Positions 12,506-62,556 of a stretch of DNA of 64,000 nucleotides are shown piece by piece. The notes beneath the pieces are model-generated. The model searched no databases, was not told the origin of the DNA, and saw only the letters and a program-made list of their open reading frames with translations. Numbering within the stretch: the first letter of the stretch is position 1; every line of letters begins with the position of its first letter. The stretch is from contig JALHQT010000002.1 of NCBI GenBank assembly GCA_022841825.1, forward strand, positions 186,001-250,000. Direction: 5' to 3'. The position numbers and the translations under genes were made by a program. Source of the DNA: Anaerolineae bacterium (GTDB lineage: Bacteria > Chloroflexota > Anaerolineae > Aggregatilineales > Phototrophicaceae).

Positions 12506-13870
12506 ATGCCCCCTCGTGCCTCCATCGCCCTCATCGCCGCCCTCGCATTTGCCGTTACTCTCCTGCTGCCGCCTGCGCTCGCCCAGGAGGATGCGCCGCT
12601 GACGGCACCTATCGCAGAGATCGTCGAAGGCGTCGGCGTCTTCGGTGAGCCTGTGCAGACGGTGCGCGGCGTGCTCCTCAACAACGACACCACCGCCTAC
12701 CGCAACATCAGTGTGACGGCGCAGGTCTTCGACGCGCAGGATACCCTGATCGGGGAGGGTCTCGGCGTGCTGGTCAATGCCTGCGGCGCGGGGCTGCTCT
12801 TTGATTTCGCGCTTCAGCCGGGCGCGACGCATCCCTTCAGTGCGCCGCTGGAGCTGTTCGAGGAAGCCGCCGCTATCGACCGCATCGCCATCAGCGCGAC
12901 GGGTGACGCCGTGCCGCCCAGCGCGGACGCCGCGCCGCTGCCAGAGGGCATCACGCAGGTCAGCAGGGAGGAGGTTGTGGCGGTCGAGTGGGAAGATACG
13001 ACCACTTTCCGCTACGCGGTGGGCTGCGAACGCGCCCTCTTCACCGAATGGGAATGGCGACGCTACGATCTGGACGAGGGCGATGATGTCGTCATCGAGC
13101 ATCCGTACGCCGACCAGGTCACCGACGAGCTGCGTGAGCGACTGCGCCTGACCGACCCGCTGATCTTCGCCAATTCGCGGCTGCGTTTCGCGCCGATGGG
13201 TGGCGAGCGGCTGGTCTATCAGGACGCCATCAACGACATCTTCACGACAGCGGCGGACGGACGCTTGCAGCGGCGTCTGCACACGCTGCTCAACCGCTAC
13301 TCGCTCCAGGGCTACATCTGGCTGCCGGAAAACCGCTTCCTCGCCTACTACTATGGTGCGTTCGGCGACCCAGTGCTCTACTTCAGCGCCGACATTGACG
13401 CGCGCATCATCAGCCGCGCACCGACGCGCGCCAAGCCGTCGGCGATTGTGCCGGGCATCGCGGCGGATGGGCGGCGGGCGATCATCGCGGGCACGTTCGA
13501 CGGCGTAACGGGATACTTCCTTGAGCGACTGGAGGATAACTTCACCGAGCTGCTCTTTGAGGCGGAGGTGCCGAGCAATAATTATCCGCCGCCCGTGCCG
13601 CTGCTGAACGAGGAAGGCGACCGCGTGACGCAGATCTACCTCGTGCGTCCGGTGGACGATGTGCCGCACTTACAATGCTTCTTCCGCCCGGAAGAGGGCG
13701 GCAGCGCATTGATCGATTATGGCGCGCTGCCGCTCAATCTGGCGATCGACGAGCGTGCGTGGTCGTTCCTCTCGCCGGATGAGCGCACCATCGCGCTGGC
13801 GGCGAACGGCGCGAACGGCGGCTTGTGGCTGATCGACCGCGACGCCCTGCCTCCGTGCGGAAGCTCCTGA
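12506..13870 (+). CDS. Exported FxLYD / beta-propeller-like protein
   Basis: 454 residues. The signal peptide ends near PALAQ-ED (residue 27). Residues 40-125 look like an FxLYD-type beta-sandwich (VRGVLLNNDTTAYRNISVTAQVFD). The rest has repeated strand patterns such as LPENRFLAYYYGAF, GIAADGRRAIIAGTFDG and FLSPDERTIALAANG, which resemble TolB/WD40-like propeller blades (the P-D-G/E-R motif). It is probably cell-surface or periplasm-equivalent. Normal high GC resumes here, 16 bases after the nuclease gene. The function is unknown. Confidence 0.65.
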   Translation: MPPRASIALIAALAFAVTLLLPPALAQEDAPLTAPIAEIVEGVGVFGEPVQTVRGVLLNNDTTAYRNISVTAQVFDAQDTLIGEGLGVLVNACGAGLLFDFALQPGATHPFSAPLELFEEAAAIDRIAISATGDAVPPSADAAPLPEGITQVSREEVVAVEWEDTTTFRYAVGCERALFTEWEWRRYDLDEGDDVVIEHPYADQVTDELRERLRLTDPLIFANSRLRFAPMGGERLVYQDAINDIFTTAADGRLQRRLHTLLNRYSLQGYIWLPENRFLAYYYGAFGDPVLYFSADIDARIISRAPTRAKPSAIVPGIAADGRRAIIAGTFDGVTGYFLERLEDNFTELLFEAEVPSNNYPPPVPLLNEEGDRVTQIYLVRPVDDVPHLQCFFRPEEGGSALIDYGALPLNLAIDERAWSFLSPDERTIALAANGANGGLWLIDRDALPPCGSS

Positions 13871-13952
13871 GGATAGAAACCGCCATGACCCCATGAGCGC
13901 CCGGTTTGAAAAGAATTCAGGCGTTCATGGCGTCGTGGCGGTTCAATTAGGC

Positions 13953-16202
13953 ATGAAACATCTCTCTCGTCTTGAACTGCTGCTTCTCCTCGCCATCCTG
14001 GTGCTGGCGGGATGGCTGCGCTTTGGCTGGATCGGCACCAACAGCTTCGCGGGCGACGAGGCGCGCATCAGCCTGGATGCGCTGCGGCTGACGCGCGGCG
14101 GCGAATTCGTCTTTATCGCCCAGCAAAGCTCGACCGGTATCCCCTTCCTGCCCGCCAGCGTCTGGATGTTCGCGCCACCTTACCTCGTCACGCCTGACCC
14201 GCTTGGCGCGACGCTCTACGTTGCGCTCCTGAGTTGGTTGACCGTGCTCGGCGTCTGGGCGCTGGCACGGCGCTGGGGGATGTGGGCGGGGTTGTGCGCG
14301 GCGCTCTTTCTGGCGGCGTCGCCCTATGCCGTCTTCTACGGGCGCAGTATCTGGCAGCCTAACCTGCTGCCCTTCCTGGGGCTGGCGTGGGCGTGGACGG
14401 CGTGGCGGGCGCTGGAAGTCGATCACACGGATTTGGTACGCCAAACCCCTATCAGAACCAGTGTAGGGGCGCAATATATTGCGCCCCTACCATCGCGTTA
14501 TTTGCCACTGATCGCGCATATCTTCCTCGCCGGGTTCATCGTCCAGGTGCATTTCGCGGGCGCGGCGCTGGCGCTCGGCACCGCGATCCTGTTCGTCTAT
14601 GGGCGCTGGTGGCGGCGCTGGCAAGCCCTGCTGATCGGCGGCGCGTTGGCGGCGTTGTGTGCGCTGCCTTACGCCTGGTATCTCATCACGCAAGCGCCGC
14701 AGGTGCTCGCGCAGTTGGGGCAGATCGGCGGCGGGGAGGCGGCGGTTGACCTGAGCGGTGCGCGCAACCTGCTGCATATGGCGCTCGGCTACGACTGGGG
14801 CTATCTGGCGCTTGGCGAATACGACACGTTCAGCCGCGAGATGGTGACGGTGGTCGTCGCGGGGGCGCTGTTGGGAATGGGTGCGTGGTGCGTAGTGCGT
14901 AGTGCGTGGTGCGCTGTGCGTGGTGCGAAAGAACGTAATGAAGAATCGGTAGGGACGAGGCATGCCTCGTCCTCAGTTGCTGCACAAGTCATGCCCACGC
15001 ACTACGCACCCCGCACCACGCACTCGGACGAGGCGCGCCTCGTCCCTACAGTACTGCTGCTTGTCTGGCTGCTGGCGTCGCCGCTGTTCTTCCTGCGCCA
15101 CACGACGCCCGTGCTGCCGCATTACCAGCTTGTCGCGCTGCCCGCGCTGGCGCTGCTCGTCGGCGCGGCGACCACGCTGGTCAATCGGCAGCTCTGGCGC
15201 TGGGGCGTGAGCGCGGCGGTGCTGGCGCTGGCAGTCGCCTGGACGACTCAGATCGCCCTCTCGCTTGAACGCGCCTCGCTTGAACGCCCGCCGCAGAGCG
15301 CCCTCAGCAGCATCCTGCGCGAATCGCGCGACGCCGCTTTCGCCATCCCACGCGACCGCGCGGCGATCTTTTACACGCATGGCGACGACCCGGCGATCAG
15401 CGGCGAGGTCGCCGTCTTCCGCGTGCTGCTGTGGGATCACCCACACGCGCGCATCGTCGATGGCACGACGACGTTGATCCTGCCGAGCGAACCCGCCGCG
15501 TTGATGTCCACGCTCGCGCCCTTCCAGGCGTGGGAGGAGCTGGTCGATCTCGAATTGGCGGGCGATGTGCGTGAGTTCCCGCGCCGCCCACCCGGCGAGG
15601 CGTTCGTGATGACGATGGTGGACGACCCCTCCCTAAATCCCTCCCTCGGCACTTGCACTCGGTCGCCACTCCGCACGCTTCGTGGAGAGGGACTTCAATC
15701 CCAGGCATCTGGCTCCCCTCTCCACGTTAGTGGGGAGGGGATGGGGGAGGGGTTCAGGGCGTTTGACATCCCCTACGGTAATGGTACGACGCTCGAGGGC
15801 ATCCGCGCGCGGCGGGTGGGCGACAGGCTGCGCATCTCGTCGTTGTGGGCGGCGGGCGATCTGACGGGTACGCCTGCGCAGGCGTTTCATCATCTATATC
15901 GCATCGGCGAGGTGGGTGACGCACTGCCGCAGGTCGATGACTTAATCCCGGCTGACCAACTCAGCACGCCTGACTACGGCTCCGACGTTGCGATGGGGAT
16001 GCGCAACTGGCGGGCGAACGATCAGGTCGTCGTGATGGCGGACTTCTTCGATGTCCCGCCGGGCATCTACCGCCTCGTCCTGGGGCAGTACACGCTGCCC
16101 GATGGCGAACGGGTGCCGCTGGCACAGGGCGGCGACTCGGTGTCGTGGGTGTTCCGGTGCTGTGAGCCGACGGACATAAACAGTGCCCAGGAGAGCCAAT
16201 GA
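13953..16202 (+). CDS. GT39-like polytopic glycosyltransferase carrying in-frame palindromic inserts
   Basis: About 749 residues from ATG 13953; an ATG at 13893 would add 20 residues rich in repeat-derived sequence. The N-terminal half has the GT-C/ArnT-PMT plan: helix 1, then NSFAGDEARIS (catalytic-type acidic pair), then many helices including ASPYAVFYGRSIWQPN. The C-terminal half is a soluble outer domain. Three hydrophilic stretches at residues 160-179, 308-367 and 558-600 are encoded by palindromic repeats and have no place in the family. The stop overlaps the FemAB-like start (ATGA), so the two are coupled, suggesting envelope-glycan work. The sugar donor is unknown. Confidence 0.72.
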   Translation: MKHLSRLELLLLLAILVLAGWLRFGWIGTNSFAGDEARISLDALRLTRGGEFVFIAQQSSTGIPFLPASVWMFAPPYLVTPDPLGATLYVALLSWLTVLGVWALARRWGMWAGLCAALFLAASPYAVFYGRSIWQPNLLPFLGLAWAWTAWRALEVDHTDLVRQTPIRTSVGAQYIAPLPSRYLPLIAHIFLAGFIVQVHFAGAALALGTAILFVYGRWWRRWQALLIGGALAALCALPYAWYLITQAPQVLAQLGQIGGGEAAVDLSGARNLLHMALGYDWGYLALGEYDTFSREMVTVVVAGALLGMGAWCVVRSAWCAVRGAKERNEESVGTRHASSSVAAQVMPTHYAPRTTHSDEARLVPTVLLLVWLLASPLFFLRHTTPVLPHYQLVALPALALLVGAATTLVNRQLWRWGVSAAVLALAVAWTTQIALSLERASLERPPQSALSSILRESRDAAFAIPRDRAAIFYTHGDDPAISGEVAVFRVLLWDHPHARIVDGTTTLILPSEPAALMSTLAPFQAWEELVDLELAGDVREFPRRPPGEAFVMTMVDDPSLNPSLGTCTRSPLRTLRGEGLQSQASGSPLHVSGEGMGEGFRAFDIPYGNGTTLEGIRARRVGDRLRISSLWAAGDLTGTPAQAFHHLYRIGEVGDALPQVDDLIPADQLSTPDYGSDVAMGMRNWRANDQVVVMADFFDVPPGIYRLVLGQYTLPDGERVPLAQGGDSVSWVFRCCEPTDINSAQESQ
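14431..14490. repeat. Family A palindrome inside the GT39-like gene (insert 1)
   Basis: Two pieces: TTTGGTACGCCAAA at 14432-14445 followed by CCCCTA, and a perfect 28-base palindrome at 14463-14490 (arm GTAGGGGCGCAATA). The reading frame runs straight through and encodes a polar loop between predicted helices. Confidence 0.9.
14879..15050. repeat. Nested family A and B palindromes inside the GT39-like gene (insert 2)
   Basis: Outer family B tracts built from GTGCGTGGTGCG and variants at 14881-14928, answered by complementary CGCACCACGCAC-type sequence at 14995-15024. Between them lies a family A palindrome, 14953-14972 (arm GGACGAGGCA), and after them another, 15026-15045 (arm GGACGAGGCG), followed by CTACAG. 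The composite adds roughly 58 polar residues in frame between two hydrophobic helices. Confidence 0.9.
15625..15753. repeat. Family C hairpin element inside the GT39-like gene (insert 3)
   Basis: Ends are the 9-base inverted repeat ACCCCTCCC (15625-15633) and GGGAGGGGT (15745-15753). Length is 129 bases, exactly 43 codons. An inner hairpin, CCCCTCTCCAC / GTGGGGAGGGG, sits near its right side (15715-15740). It is translated as a Ser/Gly/Arg-rich loop in the C-terminal soluble part of the protein. Confidence 0.88.
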
Positions 16203-17221
16203 CCCTAAACCCCTTCACACCCACCTCCGCCGAATGGGATGCGTTCGTCGTCGCCCAGCCGCGCGGGCATGTCTTGCAGCTCGCCGATTGGGGTGCGCTC
16301 AAGGGCGCGTTCGGTTGGGCGCATGAGCGCGTCGCGCTGCGCGAAGGCGATCAAATCGTGGCGGGTGCGCAGCTCCTGTTTCGCCCGCTGCCGCTGCGCC
16401 TCGGCACGATGGCGTATCTGGCGATGGGACCGTATGGTGAGGATAGATTGTGGCGTGCCATCCACGCCTGCGCGCGTCAGCATCGCGCGGTGTTCCTAAA
16501 GTGGGAGCCGGGCATTTACACGCCGGGCGAGACGCAGCCCGACCCCGCCGCGCTCGGCTTCCGGCTCGCGCCGCAGACGATCCAGCCGCCGCGCACGATC
16601 CTGATCGACATTGCTGGCGACGACGACGCCATCCTGGGGCGTATGAACCAGGGAACACGCCGCAAGATTCGCCAGAGCCTGAAGAACAGCGTGACGTACC
16701 GCGAGGCGACGCGCAATGAAGTTTCACGCTTCACACAGATGATGACGACGACGGGCGCGCGGAATGCCTTCGGCGTCCACAGCGCAGCCTACTACGAGCG
16801 CGCCTATGACCTGTTCGTGCCGCATCACGCCGCGCTGATCCTGGCGGAACATGAGGGCGAGGCGCTGGCAGGCGTGATGGTGTTCGCGGTCGGGCGGCAG
16901 GCATGGTATCTCTACGGCGCGTCGTCGGACAGCAAGCGCAACCTGATGGCGAGCTACGGCGCGCAGTGGACGGCGATCCAGTGGGCGAAGGCGCGCGGCT
17001 GTACGACTTACGACTTGTGGGGCATCCCCGACGAGGACGAGGCGGCGCTCGAAGCGGGGTTCGAGACGCGCAGCGACGGCTTATGGGGCGTCTATGGCTT
17101 CAAGCGCGGTTGGGGCGGGGATGTGGTGCGCGCATTGGGGGCATGGGACTACGTGTACAACCCGGCGCTGTATGCGGCATACAAGTTCGCGCTGCGGCTG
17201 CGGCGTGGAGCGGCGGAGTGA
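16199..17221 (+). CDS. FemAB-like aminoacyltransferase (peptidoglycan bridge family)
   Basis: 340 residues, in the normal range for the FemA/FemB/FemX family. These enzymes carry two GNAT-like folds and transfer amino acids from tRNA to cell-wall precursors or modify other surface molecules. Diagnostic segments are GHVLQLADWGALKGAFGW at the N-terminus, TILIDI...MNQGTRRKIRQSLKN (typical x-x-x-K-T-R-x-x-I pattern), an internal helix with ARNAFGVHSAAYYE, and WYLYGASSDSKRNLMASYGAQW followed by YDLWGIPD. It overlaps the GT39-like gene by 4 bases, so both are likely part of one envelope-assembly unit. Confidence 0.85.
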   Translation: MTLNPFTPTSAEWDAFVVAQPRGHVLQLADWGALKGAFGWAHERVALREGDQIVAGAQLLFRPLPLRLGTMAYLAMGPYGEDRLWRAIHACARQHRAVFLKWEPGIYTPGETQPDPAALGFRLAPQTIQPPRTILIDIAGDDDAILGRMNQGTRRKIRQSLKNSVTYREATRNEVSRFTQMMTTTGARNAFGVHSAAYYERAYDLFVPHHAALILAEHEGEALAGVMVFAVGRQAWYLYGASSDSKRNLMASYGAQWTAIQWAKARGCTTYDLWGIPDEDEAALEAGFETRSDGLWGVYGFKRGWGGDVVRALGAWDYVYNPALYAAYKFALRLRRGAAE

Positions 17222-17252
17222 AGTCGGCCGGGTACTCATGCAGCGTCGCACA

Positions 17253-18020
17253 TCAGAAGCCGGGCAGCCGCCGGATCGCATTCGTCAGTTCCGGCGGCAT
17301 GGGATGCCGGGCGAGCGTGTTAAGCCACAGCACGGCTGCATCCGCCTGACGCAGGGCGACGCCGCTGAGCTGGCGATACTGCCTGTGAAATTCGGCGGCA
17401 GTCTTATAACCGTGACGCACGAAGAACGCCTCGTCCTTTGCCTGCGCCCGCTGGAGCAGCGCCATCAGCGCTCCATTCAGCTCCGCTTCGGTGATGTTCC
17501 GTTCGACGACCAGCCACAGGAGATTGATGGTGCTGGGCGGCATCTGCCCGATCTTGTCGCCCAGCACGGCCGTCAGCTTGATCGCTCGCGCATCGGCGTC
17601 ATCGTCCAGATCGACGCCCCGCAGGCGGCGCACTTCGACGCTAAAAGGTGTATGCGTCTTAAAGGTGACGGTAAAGTCGGGTCCCCGCTGTTTGAGGGCT
17701 GCGTACCTTTCGTATTCGAGGCTGAAGCGTTCCTCGCCCAGCAGCAGGAAAGCGGCTGCCAACTCCGCGCGCAGGTCATGCAGCCCGCCCTCGTCGCGCA
17801 CATTGCGCAGCTTGCTGTGGATTTTGCCCCGGTAGGCGGTGGCAAACGCTTTGAAGCGGCGCGATGCGCGCAGCCAGCCCTCGAACTCGTCGTAGAGGGC
17901 TGGCTTCCTGCCATCAAAAAGATAGTCGAGCAAATCCTCCAGCGGCGGCACCTGTGACGATCCCCTCGCGTACCATGCGAACACGGATCGCCATTCTATA
18001 GCTGATCGTCCAACAGGCAC
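17253..18020 (-). CDS. PD-(D/E)XK nuclease-like hypothetical protein
   Basis: 255 residues with a GTG start. I do not recognise a named family, but the middle has the spacing of a restriction-endonuclease-like fold: a helix with a conserved-type Glu (LHDLRAELAAAFLLLGE), then RGPDFTVTF giving PD, then FSVEVRRLRG giving E-x-R/K. The first 60 residues and the C-terminal 90 residues are helical. No membrane segment or signal peptide. It lies between the FemAB gene (convergent, 31-base gap) and the fhs remnant, next to the low-GC AlbA_2 gene. Confidence 0.5.
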   Translation of the reverse strand: MPVGRSAIEWRSVFAWYARGSSQVPPLEDLLDYLFDGRKPALYDEFEGWLRASRRFKAFATAYRGKIHSKLRNVRDEGGLHDLRAELAAAFLLLGEERFSLEYERYAALKQRGPDFTVTFKTHTPFSVEVRRLRGVDLDDDADARAIKLTAVLGDKIGQMPPSTINLLWLVVERNITEAELNGALMALLQRAQAKDEAFFVRHGYKTAAEFHRQYRQLSGVALRQADAAVLWLNTLARHPMPPELTNAIRRLPGF

Positions 18021-21216: not shown

Positions 21217-21639
21217 GAACTCATTCTCCTTAAGAACAGAACCTGTAGGGGGCGACCCACGTGTCGTCATGGTGCGTGGTGCGGTGTGCGTGGTGCGAAA
21301 AGGCGATCGCGGTTGTAGGGACGCCATTCATGGCGTCCGTTCATGTGACAATACGACGCAAGTCATGGGTCTTTTCGCACGGCGCACGGCGCACCACGCA
21401 CTCTCGTCCAGTATCCGCCTGTTCGCCCGCGCGCGATAGTTGCGGGGATCATGCGCGCAGGGTGAGGAGTGTCCCGGTCTGCGCGAACGCCTGTCAGTAA
21501 AAACCTGACACAAGTCGGGGGATTATCGGATACAGATGGCGGGGTTTGCCCGCTACACGCCCTGCACGAATAGGCATACGATGAGGTCGTCACTTGAGAA
21601 AACCTACACAGCCCAGGTCGGGCATACAGGAGCAACCCC
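21217..21639. repeat. Intergenic region upstream of fhs with nested A and B palindromes
   Basis: A 423-base gap between divergent genes. A family B inverted repeat has arms of about 31 bases (21272-21302 with 21371-21401, both based on GTGCGTGGTGCG and ending GAAAAG). Inside its loop lies a family A palindrome (21319-21338, arm GGACGCCAT), and a partial one (GTAGGGGGCGACCCACGTG) precedes it at 21245. Further right, 21492-21510 is a small inverted repeat TGTCAG-7-CTGACA that could be an operator. AGGAG before 21640 is the ribosome site of the next gene. I see no RNA gene. Confidence 0.8.
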
Positions 21640-30790: not shown

Positions 30791-30838
30791 GGTCGATGCT
30801 CCCTCAAAGCTACACGTGTCCTGGATACACAGGCTGAG

Positions 30839-30986
30839 AGTGCGTGGTGCGTGGTGCGAAGTGCGAAAATACATTCAGAATGCGCCGAGGTACCTCGGAA
30901 GAGGCAGTGCAAAGTCTCTCTGTGGGATGCCTCGTCTCTACAACCGGCGAATTTGTGTGTTCGCACCACGCACCACGCACTTCGCA
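30839..30986. repeat. Family B inverted repeat between ppk2 and trpB2
   Basis: Arms of 21 bases built from GTGCGTGGTGCGTGGTGCGAA (one base over 20 when counted fully) at 30840-30860 and the exact reverse complement at 30960-30980, enclosing about 100 bases. The right end abuts the TAG stop of trpB2 (30987-30989), so the element forms the 3' untranslated region. The loop contains a weak GGATGCCTCGTCTCTACA, a relic of family A. Confidence 0.85.
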
Positions 30987-32351
30987 CTATACGACGGGTA
31001 ATGCCGCCATCGCCTTCTCGACCGCTTCCGCCGGATACTCGAAGTCTTCCAGCCTGCCGCTCAGGTAAGCGTCGTACGCCGCCATGTCAAAGTGCCCATG
31101 CCCGCACAGGTTGAAGAGGATCGTCTTCTTCTCACCCGACTCTTTACACTTGAGCGCTTCCTGGATCACCGTCGCAATCGCGTGCGTCGGTTCCGGCGCG
31201 GGCACGATGCCCTCGGCACGGGCGAACTGCACCCCCGCCTTGAACGTCTCCAACTGCGAGACCGCGCGCGCATCGATCAAGCCCTGGTCGTACAGCTCGC
31301 AGACGATGCTCGCCATGCCGTGATAGCGCAGCCCGCCCGCATGGAAGGGCGGTGGCACGTAGTCCTTGCCGAGCGTGTACATCTTGACCATCGGTGCCAG
31401 CCCGGCGGTATCGCCGAAGTCGTAGGCATACACGCCTTTCGTCAGGCTGGGGCAGGCGGCAGGTTCGACGGCGATGATGTGCGTGCGTTTGCCCTGGCGC
31501 AGGTTGTTGGCGACGAACGGCAGCGCGATGCCCGCGAAGTTGCTGCCGCCGCCCGTGCAGCCGACGATGATGTCCGGGAATTCGCCCGCCATCTCCATCT
31601 GCTCAATCGCCTCCAAGCCGATGACCGTCTGATGCATCAGCACATGATTAAGCACCGAGCCAAGCGCGTACTTGTACTTGCCGCCGCTGGTCGCCGCCGC
31701 CTCGACCGCCTCGCTGATGGCGATGCCGAGCGAGCCGCTGCTATCGGGATTCTTCGCCAGGATCGCGCGCCCGGAATTGGTACGGTCGCTGGGGCTGGCG
31801 TAGACGTTCGCGCCGAACGTCTGCATGATCGAGCGGCGGTAGGGCTTCTGCTGGTATGAGACTTTGACCATGTAGACTTCGCACGCCAGCCCGAACATAT
31901 CGCAGGCAATCGAGAGCGCCGTGCCCCATTGCCCCGCGCCGGTCTCGGTCGTCAAGCCGTAGACGCCTTCCTGCTGGTTGTAATATGCCTGCGGGGTGGC
32001 GGTGTTCAGCTTGTGGCTGCCGCTCGGCGAGACGCCTTCGTATTTGTAGTAGATGTGCGCGGGAGTATCGAGCACCTGCTCCAGACGGCGCGCGCGGATG
32101 AGCGGAGTCGGACGCCAGAGCTTGTAGATCTCGCGCACTTCTTCCGGGATTTCGATGTACTGCTCCTGGCTGACTTCCTGCATGATGAGCGCCATCGGGA
32201 AGAGCGGGGCGAGGTCGTCGGGACCGATGGGCTGATGTGTGCCGGGGTGCAGCACGGGTGGCAGCGGGCGCGGCAGATCATGCTGGATGTTGTACCACGC
32301 GCGCGGAAGATGGGATTGCGGCAGATCGTAACGTTTGTCCTGGTCGGTCAT
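30987..32351 (-). CDS. TrpB-like pyridoxal-phosphate enzyme (TrpB2 type)
   Basis: 454 residues from ATG 32351 with AAAGGAAG upstream; ATG 32396 is unlikely. This PLP enzyme belongs to the tryptophan synthase beta-like group TrpB2, which is longer than TrpB1 at its N-terminus. Visible signs: [16 protein letters not shown] Lys in [13 protein letters not shown], the Gly loop [14 protein letters not shown] and the C-terminal [11 protein letters not shown]. No trpA is next to it, which fits the view that TrpB2 works alone, converting indole or phosphoserine with little dependence on an alpha subunit. Confidence 0.9.
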
Positions 32352-38674: not shown

Positions 38675-39535
38675 ATGCTTCCGCCTGATACCCAAATCGC
38701 CCATGTACGGCTGGTCGTGCGCGATATGACGCGCGCGCTGGCGTTTTATCGGGATGCCCTGGGGCTGCGGCTGCTGGCTGCCAACAGCGAGAGCGCGAGG
38801 CTCGCCGCCGACCAGGGCAGCGCGATGCTGATCGAGCTGATCGCACTGCCGGGCGCGGTCGAAAAGCCGCGGCGCAGCGCGGGCTTGTACCACGTCGCCA
38901 TCCGCCTGCCCGATCGCCCATCGCTGGCGCGGCTGATCTATCGACTGGTCGCTTTGGGCGTGCGCTTCCAGGGCGCGTCCGACCACCTCGTCAGCGAGGC
39001 ACTGTATCTGGCAGACCCGGACGGCAATGGCATTGAACTCTACCGCGACCGCCCACGCTCGGAATGGCGCATGGACAGCGATGGCGTGGCGATGGCGACC
39101 GAGCCGCTGGATACCGAGGCGCTGCTGCGCGAGGGCGCGCATGACTACGGCACATGGACGGGGATCGAACCGGCGACCGACATTGGGCATGTCCACCTGC
39201 ACGTCTCCAACCTGGCGCGCGCCGAAGCCTTCTACTGTGCTGCGCTCGGCTTCGACGTGATGCAGCGCTCGTACCCCGGCGCGCTGTTCGTCGCGGCAGG
39301 GGGCTATCACCATCATCTCGGCTTGAATGTCTGGGCGGGCGAGGGCGTGCCGCCGCCGCCGGCGAATGCGGTGGGTCTGCGCGCGTTCGCGGTGCGCATC
39401 CCCGACGCGGATGCGTGGTCGGCGGCGCTGGAGCGGCTGCGCGCGGCGGGCGTCGCGGTCGAAGTTCAGCAGGGCGGACGCAGCGCACAGGTCATGAGCA
39501 ATGACGGGATGATGGTGGAATTGGTGCATCCGTAG
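38675..39535 (+). CDS. Two-domain VOC family protein (CatE/glyoxalase-like)
   Basis: 286 residues with two vicinal-oxygen-chelate modules. Module 1 starts IAHVRLVVRDMTRALAFYRD and carries LYHVAIRLPDRPSL and DPDGNGIELYRDRP; module 2 starts GHVHLHVSNLARAEAFYCA and carries YHHHLGLNVWAG and MVELVHP. The metal ligands (His at each module start, His in YHVAI/YHHHL and Glu in IELY/MVEL) are present, so it is probably an active metalloenzyme like catechol 2,3-dioxygenase CatE. The TAG stop is supplied by the repeat that follows (GTAGGGGCG). Confidence 0.85.
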   Translation: MLPPDTQIAHVRLVVRDMTRALAFYRDALGLRLLAANSESARLAADQGSAMLIELIALPGAVEKPRRSAGLYHVAIRLPDRPSLARLIYRLVALGVRFQGASDHLVSEALYLADPDGNGIELYRDRPRSEWRMDSDGVAMATEPLDTEALLREGAHDYGTWTGIEPATDIGHVHLHVSNLARAEAFYCAALGFDVMQRSYPGALFVAAGGYHHHLGLNVWAGEGVPPPPANAVGLRAFAVRIPDADAWSAALERLRAAGVAVEVQQGGRSAQVMSNDGMMVELVHP

Positions 39536-39614
39536 GGGCGCACCTATGTGTGTGCCCGTGTCCGCCATGCCGTCGTAGGGGCGCACACATGGGTGCGCCC
39601 GTGTGCGCCCCTAC
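39532..39614. repeat. Family A double element joining two convergent stop codons
   Basis: Two units: 39532-39571 (starts GTAGGGGCGCACC) and 39575-39614 with perfect 14-base arms GTAGGGGCGCACAC / GTGTGCGCCCCTAC around a 12-base loop. The terminal GTAG and CTAC provide the TAG stops of the VOC gene (39533-39535) and, on the other strand, of pncC (39611-39613). Confidence 0.9.
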
Positions 39615-49973: not shown

Positions 49974-50006
49974 CGCGCTTTCCTTCGCACATTAAGGATC
50001 ATGCCC

Positions 50007-51737
50007 ATGATAAAAGCTCGCCTACCCTCAGCGGGCTTTTTCTTTACTGCACTCTTCTTTCTCCTCCTTTTCTTTGCTTCACGCCTGATCGCGCTCGAAG
50101 CGCTGCCGCTGCACAATGATGAAGGGCTGCATCTGACGCGCGCTGTCGAAGTCTGGAATGGCAACCCCTTCTGGGAAATCCGCGACGGAAAGATCATCAA
50201 CCACTGGCTGATCGCCCTCTTCTATCCGCAGAATGCCCCGGTCTTCATCGGGCGCATCGCCACGATTTTCACCTCACTGCTCGGTTTCGCGGCATGTCTC
50301 GCGCTGACGCGCCGCATGGGCATGCCTGCTGTGGCGCTCGGCGCGCTGCTGTGGCTCTGCTCACCGTTCATGTTTTTTTACGACCGGATGGCGTTCAGCG
50401 ATGCCCAGGCGGGTGCGCTTGGTCTGCTGGCGTTGTGGGCGGCGTGTTTGACCTCACCCGCCGTAAAGGGGGGCAACCACAACAATACCGGACGCCATGA
50501 ATGGCGTCCCTACAGGATCGCGTTTGTAGGGACGACCCATGGGTCGTCCCCTAGACGCATCCCCGCATTCCATGCCGCGCGGGTTGCCGTCCTGCTCGCC
50601 CTCGCGCTGCTCTTCAAATTCACTGCCGCGCCCTACGTCCTGGGTGTCGCGCTGCTGGTGATGACGCGACGCGAATCGCTGCGCAGCCGTGTGCGCACGC
50701 TGGCGATCATCGCGGCGGTGGTCGCGGCGGCATTCGTGGTACCGGTCGCCGTGCTGCTTTCGCGCGGCAGCAGCCTGTTCGACATCGCGCTCGATTGGGT
50801 GGGCGCGGGCGGGACGGACGGGATCGGCGGGTTGACGCTGGTCGAAAACCTTTGGCGGCTGGCGTCGCTGCTGGGGTGGGGCAATCCACTTCATGCGGTG
50901 ATGCTGGTCGTGGGCTGGGCGGGGGCGCTGGGTTGGATGTTGGCACCAGATGGCGCAGGGCGGACGAGGCATGCTTCTTCCCTACAACGATTCGCGTTTG
51001 TCGTGTCGTGCCTCATCCCGATGGCGGTGGTCGTCGCTCTGGGGCGCGATGCGCAGTCGCGGCACTTCGCCGCTGCCATACCGCCGCTGGTTGCGATTGC
51101 AGCGATCGGGTGGGGGTGGGGCATTCAACGGCTGTTTCTCGCCTCGCCGCCCGACGGCAAAACGCGCCCGCTGAAGCGGACGAGACAGGCGTTGGAAGCG
51201 TCACAACGCCCCGTTCAAGGGGCGCAGATTGCCGGGGCATTGATGCCCTGGCACGTCGCACAGATTCTCATTCTTGCTGCACTGCTCCTCGTCCCCTTCG
51301 TCCCGTTCGCGTTCACCGCCTATCGCAACCCCGCCGCGACGAACATGCCGCCGCTGATGGCGTGGCAGTACGTCGAGGGCTACGCCAGCGGCTACGGTCT
51401 GCGCGAGGCGGTCGAAGCGTTCCCGCAAACGTTGGAGGACACATCACTGCAAATTGTCGCCAGCATGTATGGCGATAGCTGCCGACGTGCCAACTTCTAC
51501 GCCCGCGATGCGCGGCGGATGCTGTGTGGCGACGCGCCGATGCGCAGTGCAATCGAAGCGGCGCTTGCGCGTGATGGGGCGGTCTACGTGCTGGTCGAAC
51601 GCGGCGGTGAGATCGGCATTGACGTGACGACGCTGGATGTGCAGGCAGCAGTGCTGGGTGTCTATCCGCGCCCCAACGAGACAGGCGAGACTGCCCGTGT
51701 GCGGTTGTTGCATATGGCTATTTCTGGCAGAGACTGA
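50007..51737 (+). CDS. GT39-like membrane glycosyltransferase with palindromic inserts, second copy
   Basis: 576 residues from ATG 50007 (AAGGA 8 bases upstream). GT-C plan: N-terminal helix, then LPLHNDEGLHLTRA with the acidic pair of the catalytic loop, FMFFYDRMAFSDAQAG, and many helices before a C-terminal soluble part. Only the plan is shared with the 13953-16202 protein; the two differ in length and sequence. Polar stretches at about 162-181, 318-327 and 395-416 are encoded by palindromic repeats. It runs 20 bases into the response regulator gene on the other strand. Confidence 0.7.
   Translation: MIKARLPSAGFFFTALFFLLLFFASRLIALEALPLHNDEGLHLTRAVEVWNGNPFWEIRDGKIINHWLIALFYPQNAPVFIGRIATIFTSLLGFAACLALTRRMGMPAVALGALLWLCSPFMFFYDRMAFSDAQAGALGLLALWAACLTSPAVKGGNHNNTGRHEWRPYRIAFVGTTHGSSPRRIPAFHAARVAVLLALALLFKFTAAPYVLGVALLVMTRRESLRSRVRTLAIIAAVVAAAFVVPVAVLLSRGSSLFDIALDWVGAGGTDGIGGLTLVENLWRLASLLGWGNPLHAVMLVVGWAGALGWMLAPDGAGRTRHASSLQRFAFVVSCLIPMAVVVALGRDAQSRHFAAAIPPLVAIAAIGWGWGIQRLFLASPPDGKTRPLKRTRQALEASQRPVQGAQIAGALMPWHVAQILILAALLLVPFVPFAFTAYRNPAATNMPPLMAWQYVEGYASGYGLREAVEAFPQTLEDTSLQIVASMYGDSCRRANFYARDARRMLCGDAPMRSAIEAALARDGAVYVLVERGGEIGIDVTTLDVQAAVLGVYPRPNETGETARVRLLHMAISGRD
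50490..50549. repeat. Two family A palindromes inside the second GT39-like gene
   Basis: 50490-50509 (arm GGACGCCAT) followed by CTACA, and 50530-50549 (perfect, arm GGACGACCCA) preceded by TGTAG. The two units are head to head, so GTCCCTACA and TGTAGGGAC can also pair across the middle. Translated in frame as a polar loop. Confidence 0.9.
50960..50985. repeat. Decayed family A palindrome in the second GT39-like gene
   Basis: GGACGAGGCATGC followed by TTCTTCC and CTACAA: the left arm matches the palindrome at 14953, the right arm has changed. In frame. Confidence 0.65.
51188..51252. repeat. Family D hairpins in the second GT39-like gene
   Basis: Three short inverted repeats in a row: GGCGTT / AACGCC (51188-51210), CGCCCC-GTTCAA-GGGGCG (51207-51224) and GCCGGGGCAT / ATGCCCTGGC (51231-51252). 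The last matches, in reverse orientation, the hairpin at 63512-63534. Frame maintained. Confidence 0.8.
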
Positions 51738-62230: not shown

Positions 62231-62556
62231 ATAGCGAATTAGCGAAGAAGCAAATTAGCTTGATAGCTTGATAGCAAGTTAGCTCGATAGCTTGAGAGCG
62301 AATTAGCAAAGAAGCAAATTAGCTCGATAGCAAGTTAGCTCGATAGCTTGAGAGCGAATTAGCGAAGAAGCAAATTAGCTCGATAGCTTGAGAGCGAATT
62401 AGCAAAGAAGCAAATTAGCTTGATGGCGAATTAGCAAGTCGGCTCGATAGCTTGATAGGAAGCTTTGGCAATAGCGAGCAACCGTGATAAAAAAGCTATC
62501 AGGCTATCGAGCTATCAAGCTAATTCGCTTCTTTGCTAATCCGCTAATTTGCTCTC
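62231..62556. repeat. Octamer tandem array forming a large inverted repeat
   Basis: From 62231 to 62459 the sequence is about 28 copies of an 8-base unit with consensus (A/T)TAGCNNR (TTAGCTCG, ATAGCTTG, AGAGCGAA, TTAGCAAA, GAAGCAAA). These five units recur as a 40-base higher-order repeat at least three times. From 62493 to 62556 about eight units appear in reverse complement (AAGCTATC, AGGCTATC, GAGCTATC, AAGCTAAT, TCGCTTCT), so the region can fold back on itself. It fills the whole 353-base gap between the cupin and SDR genes. No unique spacers, so not CRISPR. Confidence 0.92.

Follow-up and report, generated by a model that had tools for sequence, protein, structure and literature searches.

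In-frame palindromic repeats in a membrane-protein gene of an Anaerolineae bacterium and elsewhere in its genome

Palindromic repeats within bacterial reading frames have been described in several systems. The parts of Di Nocera 2013 (PMC3733652) used here present GTAG REPs as stem-loops of 20-40 bp with GTAG ends, present in many copies, mostly intergenic and also arranged as tail-tail dimers, and name Chloroflexi among the phyla with GTAG repeats. The same parts describe GTAG and CGTC REPs within the ORFs of known proteins, including genes with several copies and clusters coding for 43-82 amino acids, argue that intragenic insertions are possibly neutral in flexible parts of proteins, and treat a RAYT gene flanked by REPs as usual, not universal (PMC3733652). 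For Rickettsia palindromic elements (RPE) and their Wolbachia counterparts (WPE), the sections of PMC3767692 and PMC10969869 drawn on here report several palindromic families lying in frame in genes of many kinds, with inserted segments described as solvent-exposed and with different elements near one site. Bacterial MITEs, in the portion used of the review PMC10969869, are non-coding inverted-repeat elements with occasional in-frame fusions. Because in-frame palindromes have been described both in Rickettsia and Wolbachia and as intragenic GTAG and CGTC REPs, the kind is already known, and what we report is a new and striking case of a known phenomenon. The lineage is rich in repeats and far from Rickettsia; in it, selfish palindromes are apparently translated into protein, in hosts that include a tRNA synthetase. 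Among the matches listed in a literature search on Chloroflexi, there was no paper on in-frame palindromes in Chloroflexota besides PMC3733652, and a search by sequence words yielded nothing on bacterial repeats among the matches listed. The extent of the phenomenon in this Chloroflexota family, its leaning towards membrane proteins and the use of a single frame were not found in print among those matches.

The window, by which we mean the whole stretch of 64,000 nucleotides analysed, holds on its plus strand an ORF at 13953-16202 for a multi-span membrane protein of 749 amino acids (ORF list). Its frame is open throughout, from the ATG at 13953 to the stop at 16200-16202, and also from an ATG at 13893; the three palindromic stretches that the initial annotation had seen in this open frame are indeed there. 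Judged from its sequence relatives, the protein is probably of the PMT_2 glycosyltransferase kind. Within the ortholog set of 10 proteins, 4 matched PMT_2 (PF13231), at best with 6.6e-11, but the window protein itself matched no Pfam family up to an E value of 1, so that the earlier designation as GT39-like is weak for this protein; among PDB sequences it likewise had no match up to an E value of 1. Matches to the protein, some of which are not orthologs, occur in 51 of the 61 genomes searched, its own included. A FemAB-family gene (16199-17221, plus strand, ORF list) overlaps the end of the host gene by ATGA, and the preservation of this coupled start had been taken to speak for an intact gene. 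The overlap is present, but no FemAB match at 1e-8 was found in any of the 12 ortholog loci (with flanks of unequal length), and it therefore carries little information on constraint. The 454-codon gene upstream of the host gene is present in 9 of these 12 loci. Between the two genes lies a 66-bp hairpin (AACCGCCATGACC...GGCGGTT, 13878-13943), which a AACCGCCAGGACGCC hairpin in another locus (L097) resembles.

Insert 1 (14431-14490, plus strand) consists of a palindrome and about 32 nt beside it, which may be a decayed partner unit, and gives a net gain of 20 to 21 amino acids in a codon alignment with five orthologs. It is mainly its bases 31-60 that recur elsewhere in the genome. The palindrome itself (GTAGGGGCG...CGCCCCTAC, 14463-14490), recovered by hairpin search, repeat search and folding, is perfect over 28 bp, has GTAG and CTAC ends and is read as VGAQYIAPL. 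Insert 2 (14879-15050) is a GTGCG-armed hairpin that holds two GTAG-type units, at 14949-14972 and 15026-15049; its 29-nt arms (14881-14909 and 14995-15023) are 93% complementary, and hairpin search and codon alignment give it a net gain of 28 amino acids against the relative G002. Insert 3 (15625-15753), defined by the same two methods, is a hairpin of the CCCTCTCC type with a net gain of 35 amino acids against G002. Its 21-nt arms (15625-15645 and 15733-15753) are 81% complementary and their outer 9 bases pair exactly, in agreement with the earlier description of 129 bases with 9-base terminal inverted repeats. All three inserts fold into RNA more stable than shuffled sequence, with z scores of -6.6 for the palindrome of insert 1, -7.7 for insert 2 and -4.3 for insert 3. 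Two other points of the initial annotation hold in part. Inserts 1 and 2 lie in loops between hydrophobic spans, but insert 3 is C-terminal, past the last span, by a simple hydropathy scan. The stretches amount to about 120 codons, yet the net gain against G002, the nearest relative, is 21 + 28 + 35 = 84 residues and not the more than 100 claimed, because inserts 2 and 3 occupy sites at which relatives have shorter loops.

Comparison with relatives supports the view, so far inferred, that the stretches are insertions. Fourteen loci were tried for a protein alignment and 11 relatives entered it, three loci giving no ORF since reading was confined to one strand. None of the 11 relatives has stretch 1 or stretch 3. 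Stretch 2 is absent or replaced by a shorter loop, the exception being G035, another genus of the family, whose relative of the host gene has its own AQYIAPLQ-type peptide in that loop. In the codon alignment with five orthologs, each stretch stands opposite a gap or a shorter loop. The LeuRS gene of the same genome also carries the 28-bp palindrome in frame, within a 48-nt insertion that adds 16 residues and is absent from 9 of 9 aligned relatives of the genus. A 15-base near-duplication around this insertion was noticed by eye only and was dropped. Together with the dispersal of the repeats in the genome, these absences are best explained by insertion of the three stretches after the lineage split from its genus relatives, as part of an account that we consider likely as a whole. 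The genome assembly comprises 21 contigs and is 95.7% complete, and one might suppose that the host gene is decaying or that the stretches are assembly artefacts. This is very improbable in view of a 749-codon open frame that keeps residues invariant in the other nine aligned proteins (D35 E36, for example) and of a palindrome that recurs with different flanks (50 listed). Since the inserts are absent from genus relatives, one could test directly how loops encoded by the elements affect membrane and soluble enzymes.

All three stretches are dispersed repeats in the genome, in keeping with the earlier count of at least three families. The palindrome pattern GTAGGGRCG-N(6-22)-CGYCCCTAC occurs at 64 places and the tail-tail dimer CGYCCCTAC-N(0-28)-GTAGGGRCG at 63, with none of either in reversed controls. 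These 64 palindromes and 63 dimers have the feature of GTAG-tagged REPs, a short stem-loop with the tetranucleotide GTAG at one of its ends, and the likeness extends to the tail-tail dimers and to the mostly intergenic position with some intragenic copies, as far as the portion of PMC3733652 used describes them. The 28-bp unit differs from GTAG REPs in being a full palindrome, with GTAG fully paired to CTAC; in the dimer units, by reading of the sequences, the GTAG end lies outside the stem. Insert 2 has at least 68 BLAST-type matches in the genome (40 of 219 candidates scored) and insert 3 at least 30 (40 of 49 scored), lower bounds that include the query itself and both strands of the palindromic arms. 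Against reversed-pattern controls, the GTGCG family gave 11 clusters versus 1 and the CCCTCTCC pattern 18 versus 10. The latter is so near its control that the third family rests on the BLAST-type matches, and it is the weakest of the three. Hairpins in general are abundant: in 864 kb of the genome there are 57 with a score of at least 14 and 70 with a score of 13, compared with 0 and 5, respectively, in one first-order Markov resample.

The repeats extend well beyond this genome. The exact 28-mer of insert 1 was found in 22 stretches of named genomes, all of them Anaerolineae, Anaerolineales, Anaerolineaceae or Chloroflexi MAGs, and its CAAT..ATTG inner variant in 2 of 61 genomes, its own (G000) and G035. 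The general form GTAGGGGC-N(8-20)-GCCCCTAC has 239 copies in G034, 118 in G035 and 64 in G000; in all, it is present in 38 of the 61 genomes and absent from the other 23, and controls gave at most 2 per genome. Among the matches listed, the preferred inner sequence of the palindrome differs from genome to genome, and the inner pairing is kept: in 43 distinct 28-mers of the fetched loci, positions 9-12 form 39, 42, 39 and 42 Watson-Crick pairs, against 26, 18, 14 and 13 in a shuffled control, and 22 picked palindrome sequences agree. T. roseum is a Chloroflexota. Its GTAG REPs are, in the part of PMC3733652 used, clustered in blocks at few loci.

We examined the context of the GTAG-type repeats in a sample of about 1.26 Mb (the window, 40 stretches of 20 kb, 8 stretches of 20 kb chosen for their elements, and the surroundings of listed palindromes and dimers). 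Of 178 clusters, we excluded 3 lying at stretch ends and 25 lacking a hairpin, and 150 remained. Twenty-two of these are in frame and flanked on either side by coding sequence, and they are spread over 14 ORFs; another 103 have a side that is non-coding, 12 are placed between opposite frames and 13 have same-strand coding sequence on both sides and are out of frame. In 9 of these 13 the stop of the gene precedes the element, and the other 4 resemble, by eye, natural gene ends or antisense frames. Among clusters with coding sequence on both sides there is thus no proven frame-breaking insertion; old gene-killing insertions could be hidden among the 103 with a non-coding side. In-frame copies are in excess: with a chance of 1/3 for each, P is 3e-11 for 22 of 22 and 1e-7 for 22 of 26, values that assume independence among copies that are not independent, with six clusters sharing one ORF, three another and two the host gene in the window. 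Because many loci had been chosen for holding elements, a fairer sample was used, made up of the window and 40 evenly spaced stretches of contigs C1, C2 and C3; of its 41 clusters, 7 were in frame, and 3 of these come from the window. Pattern searches for the other two families in this sample gave 2 of 11 (GTGCG) and 3 of 18 (CCCTCTCC) clusters in frame, and 3 doubtful clusters all proved on inspection to lie between genes. An asparagine synthase ORF, some glycosyltransferases and a dimer at C8:194776 are in frame at looser thresholds and stand outside the strict 22. Five further host ORFs (h1, h5, h10, h13 and h15) were set aside by eye as likely antisense frames, also outside the 22. The distribution over the genome is uneven, with 1 GTAG-type hairpin cluster in 20 stretches (400 kb, L064-L083) of contig C1 against 40 in the other 464 kb. 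The GC content of this contig is 57.4%, compared with 61-62% on C2 and C3, and the elements return near its end (1.29-1.35 Mb); it may be a core arm free of repeats or else a chimeric contig.

The 22 in-frame clusters, with no proven frame-breaker among those flanked by coding sequence on both sides, indirectly argue that the insert peptides are translated and that the inserts are not RNA hairpins only. The hairpins are very stable, and ribosome bypassing at hairpins is known elsewhere, so that one could imagine the segments being cut out after transcription or bypassed by the ribosome, leaving a protein without them. An open frame divisible by three would not be needed in that case, yet 22 intragenic clusters keep it and none is proven to break it, and Rfam gave no match at the gathering threshold in 13500-17300; we regard removal or bypassing as extremely unlikely. 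The reading that we favour, with good confidence, is that REP- or MITE-like selfish palindromes insert irrespective of frame, and that selection preserves translatable copies in tolerant loops. Small dispersed palindromes, namely REP-like units with a GTAG tag and two longer hairpins of MITE-like character, would land in a gene encoding a multi-span membrane protein, in a step that is probably frame-blind. Copies that shift the frame or add a stop would disappear with their bearers, and the survivors would be those that have a length divisible by three, are open in the frame they meet and fall within a loop or between domains. These would be translated as additional residues that are presumably nearly neutral to the host. 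The 28-bp palindrome is open in two of three phases, the third reading the TAG of GTAG, and hence a fair share of its insertions should be able to pass.

The host genes lean towards multi-span membrane proteins, which sets them apart from the GTAG REPs described, as does the presence of two other hairpin families in the same genes; the words "membrane" and "transmembrane" are absent from the main text of PMC3733652. Of the 14 hosts, 8 have five or more hydrophobic spans; outside contig C1, multi-span proteins take up 15.1% of the coding bases, so that they are in excess among the hosts (P 3e-4). Pfam names among the strict 14 ORFs are LeuRS, aldehyde dehydrogenase, NAD-dependent epimerase, HypF, Fmt (methionyl-tRNA formyltransferase), Lgt, an SHMT-GCV_T fusion, a YfhO-plus-flippase (polysaccharide flippase) ORF and two PMT_2 proteins, the others having no hit. 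In two other genera, for which codon models were trained on each genome's own loci, 2 of 28 classified palindromes (G034) and 4 of 33 (G035) are in frame, and 52 of the 61 adjoin non-coding sequence. Every one of the six in-frame copies lies in an ORF with 7-11 hydrophobic spans, multi-span ORFs making up 17.6% of the fetched coding bases. The longest ORFs of 38 relatives' loci held 3 hairpins with a score of at least 12, none of them GTAG-type, in a search that missed the imperfect palindrome of locus L236. A second membrane-protein ORF in the window (49974-51734, plus strand), with 587 codons from stop to stop, approximately 10 hydrophobic spans and no Pfam hit, contains a 60-bp GTAG tail-tail dimer in frame at 50490-50549, read as GRHEWRPYRIAFVGTTHGSSP. 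Six of the 22 in-frame clusters lie in the YfhO-flippase ORF of 1,540 codons, several of them at loops that are shorter in five aligned relatives, some of which are cut by the end of the locus. Its relative in G004 has a GTAGGGG palindrome, read as VGARHAAPL, in the last of the cluster-bearing loops. At another locus (L173 325-3099, near 218690 on contig C7 of G000), SHMT and GCV_T share one 925-codon frame with the 28-bp palindrome between them, and the palindrome may have joined the two genes.

This membrane leaning raises the question of whether element-coded loops were recruited and not merely tolerated, that is, kept for a benefit as hydrophilic spacers between spans or domains, or as mRNA hairpins that slow ribosomes, and so have a function. 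The excess of multi-span hosts would fit recruitment, as would the occurrence of different elements in one loop in different species (the window gene and G035; the last YfhO-flippase loop in G000 and G004) and the strength of the hairpins, whose pairing is kept while the inner sequence varies. Genus relatives nevertheless manage without the loops, 103 of 150 clusters have a non-coding side, and fewer than five hydrophobic spans are found in 6 of the 14 hosts; tolerance in loops accounts for the membrane bias equally well, and the kept pairing may serve mobility. We therefore judge recruitment to be improbable, and favour selection among frame-blind insertions. One observation is not predicted by frame-blind insertion: all 12 in-frame 28-bp palindromes (5 in G000, 2 in G034, 4 in G035 and 1 noticed in G004) are read in the single frame VGA...PL. 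The second open frame, RG...APT by reading of the sequence, is used in none of the 12. It is conceivable, though rather doubtful, that in this Chloroflexota family the palindromes have come to supply multi-span membrane proteins steadily with new, translatable loops, and that the element has been shaped to be harmless or useful when translated. The membrane leaning and the single frame of the palindrome are both testable patterns.

As to mobility, 44 of the 50 palindromes of fetched loci examined for a target-site duplication had none, 5 had one of 2 bases and 1 had one of 4; flanks shuffled among the copies gave 46.3, 2.6 and 0.3, respectively. Among 5 PF01797 matches in the genome, as candidates for a RAYT transposase gene bordered by GTAG repeats, none was immediately adjoined by a GTAGGG hairpin. 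Four of these five genes have other inverted repeats nearby, and on contig C5 repeat copies lie about 0.8 and 1.3 kb away. A search for a parent insertion sequence of the repeats found none. With no target-site duplication and no transposase gene bordered by the repeats, mobility is something that we infer. Terminal inverted repeats, a feature of MITEs, are present in insert 2 (29-nt arms) and insert 3 (21-nt arms) and are thus common to both, whereas the palindrome here, unlike MITEs, comes without a target-site duplication. The likeness to RPEs lies in the in-frame palindromic insertion into ORFs, here as 22 clusters in 14 ORFs; the differences are the phylum and the size, RPEs being 100-150 bp in the parts of the sources used and the main unit here 28 bp, or about 60 bp as a dimer. 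By analogy, the repeats may be said to work like RPEs, and we do not file them as members of that group.

The window holds further repeats of these types. Stretches of the GTGCG family occur at 21244-21402 and at 30838-30989, the latter between two minus-strand genes, just past the stop at 30987 of a 469-codon ORF and reading into the start of the next ORF. A three-unit GTAG cluster lies at 39532-39614, and a 153-bp hairpin of the AGCGAATTAGC type at 62393-62545 has look-alikes in two other loci (L099 and L101).
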